A stretch of DNA of 64,000 bases from Negativicutes bacterium (lineage in GTDB: Bacteria; Bacillota; Negativicutes; Veillonellales; Veillonellaceae), in contig SAAC01000003.1 in assembly GCA_009929605.1 (NCBI GenBank), positions 1 to 64,000 of the forward strand. The letters are read 5' to 3'. The translations under genes and the position numbers were made by a program. The notes below the pieces were generated by a model. It was not told the DNA's origin. It searched no databases and saw only the letters and a program-made list of their open reading frames with translations. This document shows, in pieces, positions 20,641-45,123 of this stretch. Position 1 is the first letter of the stretch. Each line of letters begins with the position of its first letter.

Positions 20641-20876
20641 AATAAAAAAAGACCGTTCATCTCATACAGAGACGATGGTCCGCGGTTCCACTCTGTTAAG
20701 TACAATTGTACTCACTCAACGCATAACGGAGCGACTCCGGATGAACCTACATATCAGCCCACCAGCTCGTGAATGCATTTCCTTTACCTATCCATAGACC
20801 CTTCCACCATCGGTCCTCGCTAGTAAGTTAGTATTAAAGTACTTCTTTCAGTCATAGCTTTTCCTATAAAAATATA
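20641..20876 (-). promoter_or_regulatory. T-box riboswitch leader of cysS (Cys specifier)
   Basis: T-box leaders bind uncharged tRNA and switch from terminator to antiterminator. The T-box core AGAGTGGAACCGCGG is at about 20681-20695 on the minus strand. A terminator hairpin follows (GACCATCGTCTC paired imperfectly with GAGATGAACGGTC) and a run of seven T at 20644-20650. Upstream is a stem I region with an AGCGAG-type segment and GGTGGAAGGG. The best specifier codon is TGC (20775-20777) in GAAATGCATTC, which fits cysteine and the downstream gene. The specifier is picked by eye, so its exact place is less sure than the T-box itself. Confidence 0.9.
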
Positions 20877-34079: not shown

Positions 34080-34505
34080 TTATATTTTTAGTGCTTCTTT
34101 CAATGTATGCCAAGCAAGTACGGCACATTTAACACGAGCAGGCATATTTGAAATATTTTTTAATGCCATAGCATCTTCCAATTCCTCTAACTCTTCGTCA
34201 TCAGTAACGTCTTTCTTGATCATACCCAAAAATAATTCAACTAAACGCAATGCTTCTTCTACAGATTTGCCTTTGATAATATCAATCATCATAGATGCAG
34301 AGGCTTGGCTGATGGCACAACCAGAACCTGTATAAGCAGCATCTTTCACAATACCATCTTGTACATCTACTTGTAATGTTAAATCATCGCCACAACTTGG
34401 ATTATGACCATGTTCAGATACAGTAAATGCATCAAGTTCATGTTTATTACGTTTATCTTGATTATGTTCTAAAATTAACTCTGTATATAATTGATCCATT
34501 TCCAT
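34080..34505 (-). CDS. sufU: Fe-S cluster assembly sulfur-transfer protein SufU
   Basis: SufU is a zinc protein that takes persulfide sulfur from SufS and passes it to SufBCD. The 141-residue IscU-like protein shows Cys38 and Asp40 in NPSCGDDL, Cys63 in GSGCAISQASASMM and Cys127 in ARVKCAVLAW, the zinc and acceptor residues of SufU. The insert between the second and third cysteines (about 18 residues longer than IscU) is typical of SufU. It is the last gene of sufCBDSU, 14 bases after sufS. Confidence 0.95.
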   Translation of the reverse strand: MEMDQLYTELILEHNQDKRNKHELDAFTVSEHGHNPSCGDDLTLQVDVQDGIVKDAAYTGSGCAISQASASMMIDIIKGKSVEEALRLVELFLGMIKKDVTDDEELEELEDAMALKNISNMPARVKCAVLAWHTLKEALKI

Positions 34506-34519
34506 GGTTCTAATCTCTC

Positions 34520-35749
34520 CTAGTCTTTATATCCCATAACAGAACGAACTGTTTTTAATACGTCCAAGAATGCATCCAAATCTTCTTTACGGGTATACAA
34601 GTACATGCTGAGTCGGCTAGATGCAACTACATTGTAGAACGCACCTAGTGGCTGTGCACAGTGATGGCCAGAACGGATACAAATACCTTTGCTATCCATA
34701 ATGGTTGCTACATCATGAGGATGTACATCTTCTACTGTGAAAGCAATAACACCATGTTTTTCTTTTGGATTTGTACTACCTAGTACACGTACATAAGGAA
34801 TTTCAAGCATCTTTGGTAAAATATAGGCTACTAATTTTTCTTCGTAGCTTTCAATTTGCTCCATACCGAAGGATTCCAAATAATCAATGGCCGCATGTAA
34901 TGTTACAGCACCATCTGCATTTGGTGTACCAGCTTCAAATTTATATGGCAATTCATTGAATGTAGTAGTTTGTTCTTTTACATATTCAATCATGTCCCCA
35001 CCTAACAAGAATGGAGGCATGGCTTCAAGCAATGCACGTTTGCCGTATAAAACACCGATACCTTGAGAAGCACACATTTTATGACCAGAGAATACGAAGA
35101 AATCGCAGTCAAGTGCTTGTACGTCAATTTTCATATGCGGTGTAGATTGTGCACCGTCAAGAACGACGATGGCACCTACGGAGTGAGCTTTCTCGATTAA
35201 TTCTTTTACAGGGAATTCCATGCCCAATACATTACTTACATGAGCAAAGGCCACAATTTTAGTGTGTTCATCAATTTTATTGATTTCACCATCTTTTAAA
35301 TGACCAGTTTCATCTAAATACATATATTCAAGAGTTGCACCAGTTTTATTAGCTACATATTGCCAAGTTACTAAGTTCGCATGATGTTCTGCCACAGTAA
35401 TTAGGATTTTGTCTCCTTCTTGTACATTGTTAACACCATAGCAATGAGCCACAAGATTCATGGATTCAGTACTATTGCGAGTAAAAATAACCTCTTCACG
35501 TTCACGAGCATTGATAAATTCAACAACGCGGTCACGAGCATTTTCATAGGCTTCACTAGCTTCTACAGCCAACACATGGGAACCACGGTGTGGATTACCA
35601 TTATGTTGTGTCATATGTTCAACAAGACGATCCACTACCACTTGTGGAATTTGTGCTGTAGCACCGCTATCTAAATAGATAACACGATTGCCATTATGTG
35701 TTTTATTTAAAATTGGAAAGTCTTTGTAAGCTTCTGTAATGGGTTTCAT
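34520..35749 (-). CDS. sufS: Cysteine desulfurase SufS
   Basis: SufS is a PLP enzyme that converts cysteine to alanine and makes a persulfide for Fe-S cluster assembly. The 409-residue group II desulfurase has NREREEVIFTRNSTESMNLVA-type PLP phosphate binding near residue 90, VLDGAQSTPHM, the PLP lysine in FFVFSGHKMCASQGIGVLYG, and the short catalytic loop IRSGHHCAQPLG. It is translated 12 bases after sufD and followed by its partner sufU. Confidence 0.96.
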   Translation of the reverse strand: MKPITEAYKDFPILNKTHNGNRVIYLDSGATAQIPQVVVDRLVEHMTQHNGNPHRGSHVLAVEASEAYENARDRVVEFINAREREEVIFTRNSTESMNLVAHCYGVNNVQEGDKILITVAEHHANLVTWQYVANKTGATLEYMYLDETGHLKDGEINKIDEHTKIVAFAHVSNVLGMEFPVKELIEKAHSVGAIVVLDGAQSTPHMKIDVQALDCDFFVFSGHKMCASQGIGVLYGKRALLEAMPPFLLGGDMIEYVKEQTTTFNELPYKFEAGTPNADGAVTLHAAIDYLESFGMEQIESYEEKLVAYILPKMLEIPYVRVLGSTNPKEKHGVIAFTVEDVHPHDVATIMDSKGICIRSGHHCAQPLGAFYNVVASSRLSMYLYTRKEDLDAFLDVLKTVRSVMGYKD

Positions 35750-35761
35750 ATATATCCCTCT

Positions 35762-36805
35762 TTAAATTTTATTTCGTACAGCTGTTAATGCTGCTTCTTC
35801 GATATCTTCATTACCAATACGGTCAATAATTGGACGAATCATAGATTCTACGATGATATGTTTTGCTTCGGCTTCACTGAAACCACGGCTCATCAAGTAG
35901 AATAATTTTGTTTTGTCCAATTGGCCGGCACTGGCTGCATGGTTACCAACTACATTATCTTCTTTACACAGCAATAATGGCAATGATACAGATTTTACAG
36001 TTGGATCAAGCAATAAACAAGTATCTTCTTCCGCACCTTCAGAACCAGTAGCACCATGAAGGAAATCAAGTGTACCACGGAAAGATTTTTTAGACACATC
36101 ACTTAATGCACCCAATGTATGAATATCAGATTTAGATTTTTTACCACCATGACTCATCAACATAAAAATATCAAATTTCTGTTCTTTATCGCCAAGATAT
36201 GCTAAATCATGAATAAGTTCACATTCTTCACCGGCTAAATCCTGTTCAAAATGTAAGATATTTTCTTTACCGCCAATTTCGATGTTAATAAATTCCACAT
36301 TAGCACGATCAGCAAGTTTAGTGTAGCGGTGTTCAATTTGTTGCAATTCTTCGCTTATCAAATTAACCTTCTTCACTACTACATTTGCTTCCTCACCAAT
36401 GATGAATTCTGTAAAAGTTTCAACACTAGTATCTTTTGCGTCCCCAGTCATAAGAATGAGAACCTCTAATTCCGCTCTATCTCCTACATGGAATTGGAAA
36501 CGGCTAGCTATACGTTTAGCAGCATTTACTTCAATTATAACTACCTCTTTACCATTTGCTGGCACAGTAATCAAATGAGCTTCACCAGTAGAGATTAAAT
36601 TTTGCAAAGCTGTTGGGTTAACACCTGGGAAGGTTGCTTTCACCAACTCTGTATTAATCAATGGTGTTACAACACCTGCATTGGCATTGATTACCACATT
36701 TGCTCTTTCGTCTGTTGCACCTAAAACTTGACCTTGTGTATGGTTAACACGTAACCATCTAAAGGTTGGTCTTGGAAGCACATTAAATAATAAATTTTCG
36801 CTCAT
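35762..36805 (-). CDS. sufD: Fe-S cluster assembly protein SufD
   Basis: SufD is the scaffold subunit that pairs with SufB and SufC to build clusters. The 347-residue protein is at the short end for SufD. The beta-helix core is seen from about residue 140 to 260, and the C-terminal segment HAASAGQLDKTKLFYLMSRGFSEAEAKHIIVESMI is the shared SufB/SufD SufC-binding region. SufB is clearly the other gene (469 residues), so this is SufD. It is 8 bases after sufB. Confidence 0.93.
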   Translation of the reverse strand: MSENLLFNVLPRPTFRWLRVNHTQGQVLGATDERANVVINANAGVVTPLINTELVKATFPGVNPTALQNLISTGEAHLITVPANGKEVVIIEVNAAKRIASRFQFHVGDRAELEVLILMTGDAKDTSVETFTEFIIGEEANVVVKKVNLISEELQQIEHRYTKLADRANVEFINIEIGGKENILHFEQDLAGEECELIHDLAYLGDKEQKFDIFMLMSHGGKKSKSDIHTLGALSDVSKKSFRGTLDFLHGATGSEGAEEDTCLLLDPTVKSVSLPLLLCKEDNVVGNHAASAGQLDKTKLFYLMSRGFSEAEAKHIIVESMIRPIIDRIGNEDIEEAALTAVRNKI

Positions 36806-36813
36806 ATGTCCTC

Positions 36814-38223
36814 CTACCCAATGGAACCTTCAAGTTCTAGATTAATCAAATTATTCATTTCTACAGCATATTCCAATGGCAATTCTTTAGAAATTGGTTC
36901 AACGAAACCACGTACAAGCATAGCACGCGCTTCCTCTTCACTAATACCACGAGTCATCAAGTAGAAAATAGCCTCATCAGAAATACGTCCAATTTTTGCT
37001 TCATGACCGATATCCACATTATCATTTTCAATGATGATAGCAGGGATTGTATCAGATTGAGACTCTGCATCAAGCATTAAGGATTCACAAGAAACAGTTG
37101 CTTTTGCATGTTCTGCATTAGGTCCCATTTTTAACAAGCCACGGTAAATAGCAGCACCACCACTTTTAGAGATAGATTTGGAGTTTACATTACTTGTTGT
37201 GTGTGGAGCATTATGAACAACTTTACAACCTGTATCAAGGAACTGACCTTCACCGGCAAATGTAACACCTGTAAATTCACAATGTGCCCCTTCACCATTT
37301 AGAATACTCATTGGATATAAGCAAGCTACACGAGATCCGAATGAACCAGAAACCCACTCAATCGTGCCACCTTTACCAACAATACAACGTTTTGTATTCA
37401 AATTGTACATATTCTTGGACCAGTTTTCGATAGTAGAGTAGCGAAGAGATGCATTATCTTTTACAAATAATTCTACAGCACCCGCATGAAGGTTAGATAC
37501 ATCATATTTAGGTGCAGAACAGCCTTCGATAAAGTGAACTTTCGCACCTTCTTCTACGATAATCATAGTATGTTCAAACTGACCAGCGCCAGGAGCATTT
37601 AAACGGAAATAGGATTGTAATGGAATATCTACTTGTACGCCAGCTGGTACATATACGAAGGACCCACCAGACCAAACAGCACCATGTAAAGCTGCCCATT
37701 TGTGATCCGTCGGAGGAATCAATGTCATCCAATACTTTTTAACGATTTCTTCATGTTCATGAAGAGCCGTTTCAATATCTGTATAGATAACACCTTGCTT
37801 AACCAAATCTTCTTGAATGCTATGGTATACAACTTCTGAGTCGTATTGTGCACCTACACCAGCTAAGGATGTTTTTTCCGCTTCTGGAATACCAAGGCGA
37901 TCAAATGTGCTCTTAATATCTTCTGGAACTTCATCCCAGCTTTCTTTCATGTCCACCTTTGGTTTTACATAGGTGACAATGTTAGACATATCAAGACCAC
38001 TAATATCTGGAATCCAAGTTGGAATATCCATCTTATTATATATATCTAAGGATTTTAAACGGAACTCAAGCATCCATTCAGGTTCATTTTTGTTCGCCCA
38101 AATCTCACGGATGATTTCTTCCGTCAAACCTGTATCAGCAATATAGGAATAATCGAACTCGTTTCTGATGTCATAGACACCACGGTCCATATCCGCAACT
38201 TGCGTCTTCTTTCTTTCTTCCAT
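36814..38223 (-). CDS. sufB: Fe-S cluster assembly protein SufB
   Basis: SufB is the scaffold on which the nascent Fe-S cluster is made, with SufC as ATPase and SufD as partner. The 469-residue protein has the strongly conserved SufB signatures: GAVWSGGSFVYVPAGVQVD, FEHTMIIVEEGAKVHFIEGCSAP, LRYSTIENWSKNMYNL and ISEEEARAMLVRGFVEP. Cysteine residues in IEGCSAP and in the C-terminal half fit cluster assembly. It lies 9 bases after sufC. Confidence 0.97.
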   Translation of the reverse strand: MEERKKTQVADMDRGVYDIRNEFDYSYIADTGLTEEIIREIWANKNEPEWMLEFRLKSLDIYNKMDIPTWIPDISGLDMSNIVTYVKPKVDMKESWDEVPEDIKSTFDRLGIPEAEKTSLAGVGAQYDSEVVYHSIQEDLVKQGVIYTDIETALHEHEEIVKKYWMTLIPPTDHKWAALHGAVWSGGSFVYVPAGVQVDIPLQSYFRLNAPGAGQFEHTMIIVEEGAKVHFIEGCSAPKYDVSNLHAGAVELFVKDNASLRYSTIENWSKNMYNLNTKRCIVGKGGTIEWVSGSFGSRVACLYPMSILNGEGAHCEFTGVTFAGEGQFLDTGCKVVHNAPHTTSNVNSKSISKSGGAAIYRGLLKMGPNAEHAKATVSCESLMLDAESQSDTIPAIIIENDNVDIGHEAKIGRISDEAIFYLMTRGISEEEARAMLVRGFVEPISKELPLEYAVEMNNLINLELEGSIG

Positions 38224-38232
38224 GAATGCCTC

Positions 38233-38976
38233 CTAAGCCAATTCTTTATATGCGTCGTAACCTTTTTCTTCAATTTCTTTTACTAGGGATGCATCGCCAG
38301 TTTTAACGATTTTACCGTTAATCAAAACATGAACGAATGTAGGATTTAATTTTTGAAGAATTTGATTGTGATGAGTAATAATCAATACTGAGTTCTTTTC
38401 ATTATGGAAACGATTTACACCTTCAGAAACGATGCGAACAGCATCCACGTCAAGACCAGAATCAGTTTCGTCAAGAATAGCTAATTTAGGATCAAGAATA
38501 GACATTTGTAAGATTTCATTTTTCTTACGTTCACCACCAGAAAAACCTTCATTAACATAACGTTGCGCATAGGCTGCATCAAAAGATAATTCATCCATTT
38601 TAGCTTTTAATTCTTTTTTGAAAGCCAATGCACGTACATTTTCACCAGTAATTGTAGATTTAGCTGTACGAATAAAGTTTTCAACAGTGATGCCTGGCAC
38701 AGAAATTGGATGTTGGAAAGACATAAAAATACCAGCTTTGGCACGGTCATTAACAGCATCTTCTGTAATATCGTTACCATCAAATACGATGGAACCTTTA
38801 TCTACAGTGTAAATTGGGTTACCCATAATAGCATTAGCCAATGTAGATTTACCAGCACCATTTGTACCCATAACTACATGGATTTCACCTGGATTAATTG
38901 TCAGGTTAATGCCTTTTAATATTTTTTTACCTTCAACAGATACTTCTAAATCTTTTACTTGAAGCAGTTCAGCCAA
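38233..38976 (-). CDS. sufC: Fe-S cluster assembly ATPase SufC
   Basis: SufC is a soluble ABC-type ATPase that drives structural change in SufBD. The 247 residues have Walker A GTNGAGKSTLANAIMG, Q-loop ISVPGITVENF, the SufC signature EGFSGGERKKNEILQM and Walker B LAILDETDSGLDVDA. The start is a TTG at 38976 with AAGGAG about 9 bases upstream. It heads sufCBDSU, behind a leader RNA with a terminator-type hairpin and a possible antiterminator. Confidence 0.97.
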   Translation of the reverse strand: MAELLQVKDLEVSVEGKKILKGINLTINPGEIHVVMGTNGAGKSTLANAIMGNPIYTVDKGSIVFDGNDITEDAVNDRAKAGIFMSFQHPISVPGITVENFIRTAKSTITGENVRALAFKKELKAKMDELSFDAAYAQRYVNEGFSGGERKKNEILQMSILDPKLAILDETDSGLDVDAVRIVSEGVNRFHNEKNSVLIITHHNQILQKLNPTFVHVLINGKIVKTGDASLVKEIEEKGYDAYKELA

Positions 38977-39141
38977 AATAATTCACTCCTTATATACTAT
39001 ATATAATGCTAAAACAATATGAATATTACTAAATAAAATATATCAACACATGTCTTATATAGACGTAAAAAAGCGGTATGCACCAAAGTGAATACCGCTG
39101 TATCTTCTCGCCACTTTAGCAAGTCATGTGCATAACTATCT
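38977..39141 (-). promoter_or_regulatory. Candidate attenuator leader RNA of the suf operon
   Basis: The predicted 165-nt leader starts near 39141. TATGCA (39129-39134) and CTAAAGTG (39112-39119) can pair with the contiguous CACTTTGG and TGCATA at 39090-39083 and 39082-39077 (14 pairs, two of them G-U, with a 9-nt bulge). That block is also part of the terminator hairpin at 39073-39098, so the two folds exclude each other. This is how transcription attenuators and riboswitches work. No ligand-binding fold that I recognise is present. It could still be just the lysA terminator with chance complementarity. Confidence 0.5.
39073..39098 (-). terminator. Intrinsic terminator in the suf leader
   Basis: GCGGTAT and ATACCGC form the outer stem, CAC/GTG the inner stem, with a TTTG loop; the minus strand continues with CTTTTTTACG. 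It lies 97 bases before sufC and 205 bases past the lysA stop, with a promoter in between. Confidence 0.8.
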
Positions 39142-39147
39142 ATACTT

Positions 39148-39176
39148 ATTATACATGCTTGTCTAATTGATAGCAA
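39148..39176 (-). promoter_or_regulatory. Candidate promoter of the suf operon
   Basis: The minus strand has TTGCTA (39171-39176), a 17-base spacer and consensus TATAAT (39148-39153). RNA would begin near 39141, ahead of the leader hairpins. The remaining 39177-39302 is AT-rich with no gene seen. Confidence 0.65.
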
Positions 39177-39302
39177 GATATTCCTACCAAAATATATTGG
39201 AATTAAAAGAATAGTATATATTACTTATATAAATAGGCTTTTTATCCAAATGAGTATTTTGGTATCAATTCTCAATTAATACTTTTTACTTATAATTTTT
39301 TA

Positions 39303-40559
39303 TTATAAATTAGAGAAATCCAATGTGCCAAACAAATCATCATATGTTTCAGCACGACGAATTTGTGTTACGCTGCCATCCTTATGCAATAATAATTCAG
39401 CAGAACGTAATTTACCATTATAATTGAAGCCCATAGAATGACCATGTGCACCAGCATCATGAATAATAACACGATCCCCGATATCAATTTTTGGTAATTC
39501 ACGTTGAATAGCGAATTTATCATTGTTTTCACATAAAGATCCAGTTACATCATATACATGATCTAAAGGCGCATTTTCCTTTCCCATTACTGTAATGTGA
39601 TGATAGGAACCATACAATGCTGGACGCATTAAATTAGCCATACAGGAATCTAAACCAATATAGTTACGGTAGATTTCTTTTTTATGAATCGCTGTAGATA
39701 CGAGCCAACCAAATGGTCCCGTTACCATACGGCCACATTCATATGATAAGGCAATATGTGGATACTGATTTTCCACTAAAATACGTTCATAAGCTTCTTT
39801 GATTTCAGCACCTAATGCTTCAAAGTCCATAGGTTCTTCTTCAGGACGATAAGCAACACCTACACCACCACCAAGATCGATAAATTCTAACTCAATACCA
39901 ACTTTTTCACGAATTTCAAGAGCAAATTCAAAGCAAATTTCAGCTGTTTGTTTATGAGCCATCACATCTCTGTCATTGGAAGCTAACATAACGTGTAAAC
40001 CAAAGTGCTTAACTCCAAGTCCTTTCATACGTTTGTATGATTCTAAAGCTTGTTCATGAGTCATTCCATATTTAGCTTCTGTTGGAACACCAATGATATC
40101 GTTACCACCAGATTTTAAATCACCAGGATTATAACGTAAACACATTGTATCAGGTAAAGAACCATGGTTTTCTAATAAATAATCGATATGTGTAATATCA
40201 TCAAGATTGATGATAGCCCCCAAATCTAATGCTTTCTTGTACTCTACATATGGTGTGTTATTGGACGTGAACATAATATCATGACCAGTGATACCAACCT
40301 TTTCACAAAGAATTAACTCTGCCAAAGAAGAACAATCTGCCCCTACGCCCAATGGTTGTAATAAACGCATTAGGTAAGGATTTGGTGTAGCTTTCACAGC
40401 AAAATAATTTTTGAAACCTTTGTTCCAATTAAATGCTGCTAAAAAACGTTTCATATTATTTACAATACCTTCTTCATCATAGATGTGGAAAGGCGTTGGG
40501 TATTCTTTAATAATGTCTTCAAGTTGCTCTACTGTAAATGGGACTTTTTTCTCGCTCAT
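39303..40559 (-). CDS. lysA: Diaminopimelate decarboxylase
   Basis: LysA is a fold-III PLP enzyme that turns meso-diaminopimelate into lysine. The 418 residues have the PLP lysine in NYFAVKATPNPYLMRLL, GADCSSLAEL, an H-containing ring-stacking strand (HFGLHVMLASND), the phosphate-binding glycine run FIDLGGGVGVAY, ECGRMVTGP and the active-site cysteine segment VTGSLCENNDKFAIQRELP. The CENND variant replaces the more common CESGD and occurs in a known LysA subgroup. Related fold-III decarboxylases use ornithine or carboxynorspermidine, so substrate is inferred. It has its own consensus promoter and no visible lysine riboswitch. Confidence 0.88.
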   Translation of the reverse strand: MSEKKVPFTVEQLEDIIKEYPTPFHIYDEEGIVNNMKRFLAAFNWNKGFKNYFAVKATPNPYLMRLLQPLGVGADCSSLAELILCEKVGITGHDIMFTSNNTPYVEYKKALDLGAIINLDDITHIDYLLENHGSLPDTMCLRYNPGDLKSGGNDIIGVPTEAKYGMTHEQALESYKRMKGLGVKHFGLHVMLASNDRDVMAHKQTAEICFEFALEIREKVGIELEFIDLGGGVGVAYRPEEEPMDFEALGAEIKEAYERILVENQYPHIALSYECGRMVTGPFGWLVSTAIHKKEIYRNYIGLDSCMANLMRPALYGSYHHITVMGKENAPLDHVYDVTGSLCENNDKFAIQRELPKIDIGDRVIIHDAGAHGHSMGFNYNGKLRSAELLLHKDGSVTQIRRAETYDDLFGTLDFSNL

Positions 40560-43089: not shown

Positions 43090-43161
43090 CATTTCGTTAT
43101 TATTTTTTATCCGTTATGCCATATTATTTTTTACTCACTATACCAATATTATTTTTTACTC
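43090..43161. repeat. Tandem 25-base repeat at the end of the ANTAR regulator gene
   Basis: On the minus strand, GAGTAAAAAATAATAT begins two units of 25 bases (43137-43161 and 43112-43136), and a weaker third unit with GATAAAAAATAATA follows. The first unit holds the last codons and TAA stop of the regulator gene, so the 3' end seems to have been duplicated in tandem. Confidence 0.7.
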
Positions 43162-43718
43162 GCCGATGCGATAATCTGTTCGCACAAAGTAGCAATGGTC
43201 ACTTGTTTTTTCATTGCCAAGCCACGAATCCGAGAAAACGCCTCATCCTCAGTTACTTTATACATATCCATTAATAGCCCGGTAGCACGACTAATAAGTT
43301 TGCGATCCTCTAAAGATTGTTCTAAAGATGCCATATCGGCACGCATTTGCTCATCCTCTTTAAAACGGCCAATAGCCATTTGTAATGTAGGAATCAGTTG
43401 CTCTTCTCTAACGGGTTTAATCAAATAGCCAAATACGCCAGAGTCTTTTGCTTTTTTAACTAGATCATCTTGACTAAACGCCGTTAATAGCACAACTGGT
43501 GCATAATGATTATAACCAATTTGTCGAGCTGCCTCTATACCATCTAATTCTGGCATTTTTACATCCATAAGGATTACATCTGGTTGTAATTGTTTTGCCA
43601 ACCGAATGGCTTCAACGCCATTAGCACCTTCTCCTATAATTTCACAGCCACCAGACTCTAGAATATCTCTAAGATCCATTCTAATTAAAGATTCATCATC
43701 TACGAGTACTACCTTCAT
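43149..43718 (-). CDS. ANTAR-domain response regulator
   Basis: This is a receiver plus ANTAR protein, the type that binds paired hexaloop RNA hairpins to prevent transcription termination (as EutV, NasR, PdtaR). The 189 residues have Asp7/Asp8, phospho-acceptor Asp52 ([13 protein letters not shown]), Thr79 and Lys101 (LIKPVREEQ) in the receiver. A coiled segment and the ANTAR helices ([35 protein letters not shown]) follow from about residue 128. The start is the ATG at 43718 with AAGGAGA upstream. It lies one base after the HisKA_2 kinase stop, so the pair forms a two-component system. RNA targets are not evident in this window. Confidence 0.92.
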
Positions 43719-43719
43719 A

Positions 43720-45123
43720 TTATTCTCCTTTTTCAAAATCAATGGTCACAATTGTCCCCCCAGACTGATGATTTCCCATCTGTATTGTGCCTTGTAATTC
43801 ATGAGTCACTAAATTTCTAATAATTTGTAATCCTAATCGCTTGGATGCATCCAAAGAAAATGACTCTGGCAGTCCCTTGCCATCATCGCCTAAGGTTATC
43901 AAAATACGCTGATTATTGTCCTGTACCGATAATGTGATATGACCATCTTGTGTCCCAAGTCCATGCTCAATGCTATTAGATATGAGTTCATTAATAATCA
44001 AGGACACATAACTCGCTTGATGTGAGGAAATGATAATATCATCTCCTATATAATCACATTGCACCTGTTGCTTTGGTAACAGCATACTATTTTTTAACAA
44101 TCTACTAAGTTCATCATAAATACTACGAATAGAAATATAATCCTCATCATAGTGGGATACGATGTCGTGTACCAATGCCATACTTTCAATTCGAGAGATT
44201 CCCTCTTGTAATGCTTTTTTAACCTCATTAGAGTCTGATCGTCTAGCCTCCATGCGAAGCAGTCCTGCTACGGTTTGCAAATTGTTTTTTACGCGATGGT
44301 GAATCTCTTTAATAACGGAATTTTTTACTAATAAAGCCTGTTGTTGTTTACTTTCACGTGTCATATCCTTTAAGAACAAAAAACTACGGCTCAAACCGCG
44401 CCCAAAGAATACGGGAATGACCGTTTGACGAACCACAATATCCTGGTATATTTCCTCACTAATGGCCCCTTGTCGTTCAGTGAGCACTTTTTTTACAAAG
44501 GACAACTTCAAGGAACTGCCATAAATAGATGACCCTACTAATCTCCGATCAAAGCCTAGTAAATTAACAAGTCGAGATGCCGATTCATTACCATACATGA
44601 TGGTGCCCCCTTCATCAAATATGATAACCCCATCCTGATAGGATAGTGGTTCATAAAGGCTCTTTGGATTATCCAATATATCTTGTGGCATTAACATAGA
44701 CATATATGTGGTCTCAGTTAAAAGAAGAATTTGTTGAATAATATTTTCATCAGCCACACTTTCTATATGAGGATTTTTAAATACGAGTCCCCCTATCACC
44801 TTACCACCATTATCTACAATAGGATAGGTAATAATAAATGCTAATTTTCCATTTTGCTCCTCTTGAAAGCCCTGTATAGGTTGCCCTTCAGACAACAGCT
44901 GTGTCCAAATGGGAACAATCGTAGCAGATAATGATTTACAAGCAATACCCTGCTTTATAGGGTAGATTTTCAAAAATCCCCCCTCTTGATTTGCCGTAAA
45001 CATATACACAGCATGCTGTACCACTGATTCAGCAAAAGGGATAAACTCAGCAATCCGCAACAACAGGCTAACTTGTGGCTCAGACAGATTGGTATCTTTT
45101 AATAATGTACTTTGTATATCCAT
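43720..45123 (-). CDS. HisKA_2-family sensor histidine kinase (PdtaS/EutW type)
   Basis: This cytosolic kinase should phosphorylate the ANTAR regulator next to it. The 467-residue protein has no membrane helix. An N-terminal GAF-like domain (about 20-145) is followed by a PAS domain (about 160-260, [23 protein letters not shown]), the HisKA_2 motif [20 protein letters not shown] with the phosphorylatable His275 or His276, and an HWE/HATPase_c domain ([24 protein letters not shown]). Cysteines or haem ligands for a known input are not obvious. The start overlaps the tsaD stop by one base (TAATG), so it rides on the t6A operon. Confidence 0.9.

Follow-up and report, generated by a model that had tools for sequence, protein, structure and literature searches.

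The leader of the suf operon in the 64,000-nucleotide stretch of Negativicutes DNA analyzed here (the window) is best read, with a probability of about 0.58, as a lineage-specific transcription attenuator that would work by antitermination. The promoter sequence, a small hairpin (P1), and an intrinsic terminator are conserved, the two hairpins covary, and complementarity between an upstream segment and the terminator is retained in relatives. Fe-S assembly operons are known mainly for regulation by DNA-binding proteins, with small RNAs taking part in some bacteria. In the literature searched on suf and Veillonella we found no report of a conserved suf-leader attenuator and no RNA data for Veillonella suf read-through, work published in 2024 on the S. 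mutans sufCDSUB promoter mentioned neither a terminator nor a leader, and in the main text of a survey of premature terminators (PMC2965389) neither Veillonella nor iron-sulfur nor any suf gene is mentioned. Should read-through prove to be regulated, Veillonella of the mouth and gut would tune Fe-S assembly once transcription is under way, and the compactness of the 75-nt element would make its input easy to seek.

The operon lies on the minus strand and runs from 38976 downwards in the order sufC, sufB, sufD, sufS, and a sufU-like gene. The ABC ATPase gene sufC (38233-38976) has orthologues in 28 of 28 family genomes, and its Shine-Dalgarno sequence AGGAG and TTG start codon (38974-38990) are both conserved in relatives. 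The products of sufB (36814-38223) and sufD (35762-36805) account for two Pfam SUFBD_core matches within 34080-38223, sufS (34520-35749) matches Aminotran_5, and the sufU-like open reading frame (34080-34505) is named from sequence inspection only. Upstream, a gene for a lysA-like PLP decarboxylase (39303-40559, minus strand) is separated from the suf promoter by ∼130 nt. The promoter (39148-39176, minus strand) reads TTGCTA-17-TATAAT, with the -35 element at 39176-39171, the -10 element at 39153-39148, and a 10/12 match to the consensus. A start near 39141 leaves ∼165 nt to the sufC TTG at 38976, in agreement with the TATAAT promoter and 165-nt leader described in the initial annotation.

The intrinsic terminator occupies 39067-39099 on the minus strand and reads, from 39099 to 39067, AGCGGUAU-U-CAC-UUUG-GUG-C-AUACCGCU followed by U6, with CAC-UUUG-GUG at its apex and the U tract at its end. 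From the end of the last G-C pair to sufC there are 97 nt, the distance originally given. Folding yielded this hairpin (leader free energy -21.8 kcal/mol, z -2.6). A strict terminator scan listed no site here, apparently because a U·C mismatch interrupts the stem. P1, which was absent from the initial annotation, was found at 39107-39123 (minus strand) as CUUGC-UAAAGUG-GCGAG with the core GCU-AAAGU-GGC, and it overlaps the pairing segment considered below. The three pairs of the P1 core were kept in 100% of 19 distinct sequences, and two of the three covary (G-C/A-U and C-G/U-G/U-A); the variants across genera were GCC-AAAGU-GGC, UACC-GAAGU-GGUA, UACC-AAAGU-GGUA, and GCU-AAAGU-(G/A)GC, and the main Veillonella clade carries AAGUU in the loop. 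For the terminator by itself, 99.5% of cells were paired and three pairs had changed on both sides. In the structural alignment (29 matches, 19 distinct), P1 and the terminator together had 99.6% of cells paired and five pairs changed on both sides, with a covariation score of 0.345 compared with 0.186 ± 0.019 for shuffled alignments and at most 0.108 with slid partners; because the alignment was fitted to the structure, these values lean towards it. We consider P1 and the terminator to be well supported as conserved structures on the basis of this comparison.

A DNA search recovered the leader from 14 of 14 genomes of the genus, and a search with SufC located the element before sufC in 28 of 28 family genomes spanning four genera, once per genome and nowhere else. 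P1, the spacer, and the terminator follow the same promoter at near-fixed spacing in all 28, the TATAAT sitting 32 to 42 nt before P1. Conservation formed an island from an operator-like dyad to the terminator, the spacer from there to the Shine-Dalgarno sequence being poorly conserved; across genera the conserved residues comprised only the 11-nt P1 and the terminator, and the leader before P1 was not conserved. Named carriers include V. denticariosi, V. infantium, V. caviae, V. agrestimuris, and V. ratti, which places the element in Veillonella sensu lato. A covariance model run over 300 genomes of the class gave no clear match in the 272 genomes outside the family, the best matches there (L076 and L077) being rejected as ordinary terminators of other genes; the weak second matches that were read in family genomes also appear to be ordinary terminators. 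The 26 sister-family sufC leaders that were read directly (three families) are short and lack the element, and the sufC loci of 71 non-Veillonella records contained no convincing match to it. A pattern of two complementary halves, run over 398 genomes of the phylum, matched none of them; this is weak negative evidence, as the pattern is too strict even for this genome, which it also misses. The recurrence of the helices in relatives, put forward initially as the check on the proposal, was thereby borne out with covariation within the Veillonella family (28/28) and failed in the Megasphaera- and Dialister-type relatives, as the 26 sister-family leaders show.

The initial annotation had also described a pairing over 14 positions, and this was reproduced: TATGCA (39134-39129), a 9-nt bulge, and CTAAAGTG (39119-39112) are complementary to CACTTTGG/TGCATA (39090-39077). 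We divide it into two putative antiterminator blocks on the minus strand. Block 1, with the 5' strand CTAAAGTG (39112-39119), lies inside P1 and is complementary to 39090-39083, and block 2, with the 5' strand TATGCAC (39128-39134), pairs with GTGCATA at 39083-39077. The mutual exclusion claimed for this pairing and the terminator holds sterically. The two folds are not evenly balanced, since in the window the terminator (-24.5 kcal/mol) is more stable than the competing pairing (-14.4 kcal/mol) by ∼10 kcal/mol, and folding favored the terminator by 3 to 16 kcal/mol in 13 of the 13 sequences tested. Given this thermodynamic advantage, antitermination would need to be transient or kinetic, or else stabilized or assisted. 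Equally strong pairing arose in ∼8% of dinucleotide shuffles of the window sequence alone, so that the single-sequence pairing is not significant by itself and the weight is carried by conservation in relatives.

Across the family, block 1 (CUAAAGUG:CACUUUGG) had 89% of cells paired compared with 22 to 56% when the partners were slid. It comprises eight or nine pairs in the window, as it does in genera 3 and 4 and the divergent genus-1 species G006 (L015/L047); genus 2 has a bulged form, and the main Veillonella clade a degenerate one (5-7 of 9). When compared with shuffles, the block 1 pairing gave p = 0.002-0.03 in five sequences of two genera and was no better than shuffles in the main Veillonella clade (p 0.2-0.7); in one other genus, represented by L045, a base has been lost from the loop and p was 0.46. 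Block 2 (UAUGCAC:GUGCAUA or GUGCGUA), of 7 bp, was fully paired (100% of cells) in each of the 10 distinct sequences from genus 1, the changes being limited to those to or from G-U wobbles; the main Veillonella clade, with its degenerate block 1, always retains it. No covariation was seen in block 1 across the family or in block 2 within genus 1, and block 2 is so nearly invariant that it yields no such signal. Partial transcripts ending before the complete 3' arm of the terminator were predicted to fold into block 1 or block 2 in most sequences, via block 1 in the window, the three other genera, and G006, and via block 2 in several others. With complementarity kept in most lineages yet no covariation, and with one block partly broken in the main Veillonella clade, the competing pairing is less secure than P1 and the terminator.

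From these features we infer that antitermination takes place, in which direction it works, and that some signal, probably trans-acting, may feed into it. RNA polymerase would start at the conserved promoter, make a ∼75-nt leader, and meet the terminator by default, such that many transcripts would stop before sufC. Before completion of the terminator 3' arm, the upstream segment could pair with the terminator loop and then with the descending arm, block 1 (CUAAAGUG:CACUUUGG) and block 2 (UAUGCAC:GUGCAUA) keeping the terminator open while P1 either competes with block 1 or persists unbroken within block 2. Read-through into sufCBDSU would then be set by a trans-acting factor or an elongation-rate effect, either of them acting on P1 or the antiterminator. 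The leader shares with the terminator/antiterminator attenuators surveyed previously (PMC2965389) a promoter, a short leader, a putative competing upstream pairing, and an intrinsic terminator ahead of an operon. A more specific version, in which the leader would represent an undescribed cis-regulatory RNA family private to the Veillonella lineage and antitermination of suf would be governed by a dedicated RNA-binding protein or a factor that responds to Fe-S, is a tentative and rather doubtful proposal. A compact, conserved RNA of ∼75 nt with its own promoter and terminator might also be a trans-acting small RNA transcribed from the suf promoter, its 3' end being the terminator; no known small RNA was matched and suf transcription must still pass the terminator, which makes this reading very improbable.

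The initial annotation had offered an attenuator or a riboswitch as alternatives. That a premature terminator controls suf at the RNA level is supported, as a covarying intrinsic terminator lies between promoter and first gene in 28 of 28 genomes. The riboswitch part is not supported: a search of the leader against Rfam at gathering and relaxed thresholds matched no family, and with only P1 and the terminator conserved across genera, and nothing before P1, there is no aptamer-sized conserved core. Despite the competing folds in a terminator-controlled Fe-S operon leader, we therefore give little credence to a riboswitch for a metabolite or metal (iron, cysteine, or an Fe-S precursor). Control by cysteine through a leader peptide was likewise contradicted. 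A five-codon frame, ATG CAC ATG ACT TGC TAA (MHMTC; 39133-39116, minus strand), is present at the leader start. This frame is confined to this genome, frames in relatives being different or absent, and the idea falls with the lack of a conserved reading frame; a ribosome-mediated attenuator with regulatory codons in a conserved short frame was rejected on the same grounds. The sole match to the T-box covariance model in the window was a leader at 20665-20864 (minus strand), scoring above the Rfam gathering threshold, and the suf leader had no T-box match.

Genes for an ANTAR response regulator and an overlapping HisKA_2 histidine kinase lie 4 kb upstream of suf (43149-45123, minus strand), and such a regulator, or another RNA-binding protein, might bind P1 and the terminator apex (CAC-UUUG-GUG) and control termination. 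ANTAR target RNAs consist of two hexaloop hairpins with A1 and G4, the second overlapping the terminator (PMC3369931), and the nearby genes make the presence or absence of these hairpins relevant. The leaders regulated by EutV, NasR, and AmiR (PMC3369931) resemble the suf leader in having a small hairpin upstream of the terminator and an ANTAR regulator encoded nearby, and ANTAR proteins were found in 28 of 28 family genomes, mostly within about 4 to 8 kb of suf. In several sequences, A1 and G4 are both present in the P1 loop AAAGU. The suf leader differs, though, in lacking a second A1/G4 hairpin over the terminator; dual A1/G4 hexaloop hairpins occurred in none of 14 leaders, and the P1 loops have five nucleotides rather than six and change to GAAGU or AAGUU, so A1/G4 is not conserved. 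ANTAR proteins are, moreover, equally present in 26 of 26 sister-family genomes that lack the leader. Binding of such a protein is thus quite improbable, and the ANTAR regulator is a candidate trans factor that these comparisons do not support.

The terminator could alternatively belong mainly to lysA, ending lysA read-through and passively lowering suf expression by an unvarying fraction rather than switching it, in which case the arrangement would be ordinary. Nearly all representatives examined have lysA upstream, and in 12 of the family the stretch from lysA to sufC contains no strong terminator but that of the suf leader, which may therefore also end lysA transcripts; in a sister family without the element (L090, L095, and L098), a terminator belonging to lysA follows its stop codon directly. 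In the window, no strong terminator follows lysA at 39202-39302 and the suf leader terminator is the first downstream. A role confined to lysA would, however, leave unexplained the covarying P1, the near-fixed spacing from promoter to P1, and the retained complementarity, and in one genus the element stays beside sufC despite ∼470 nt and another reading frame between it and lysA. We consider a terminator serving mainly lysA to be unlikely, and prefer attenuation of suf.

Control of read-through by the attenuator would act on top of a promoter operator. An imperfect dyad, TTCC-N14-GGAA (39181-39202, minus strand), lies directly upstream of the -35 element and is the most conserved intergenic block (39202-39181; mean identity 0.94 in genus 1); like P1, it was absent from the initial annotation. 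Operator sites were sought by pattern search only, and the exact pattern occurred once in the genome; the other three genera of the family have related dyads in the corresponding position. This conservation suggests that the dyad is probably an operator for a DNA-binding regulator, and in that respect the promoter resembles suf promoters under IscR/Rrf2-type control (for example in Caulobacter, PMC11475020). It differs in the 14 nt between CC and GG and in the additional RNA element. In the E. coli IscR type 2 site the spacing between CC and GG is 13 nt. A relative of the dyad with three mismatches, ATCCCCTATATTTTACTAGGAT (L197), was noted ∼150 nt upstream of an Fe-only-hydrogenase-like gene, matches with three mismatches being near the noise level. 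Sister family f2 (L078-L088) has another conserved sequence upstream of sufC, ACTAAAwAGGTTGACTTT, which overlaps the -35 region and is probably a distinct suf operator of that family.
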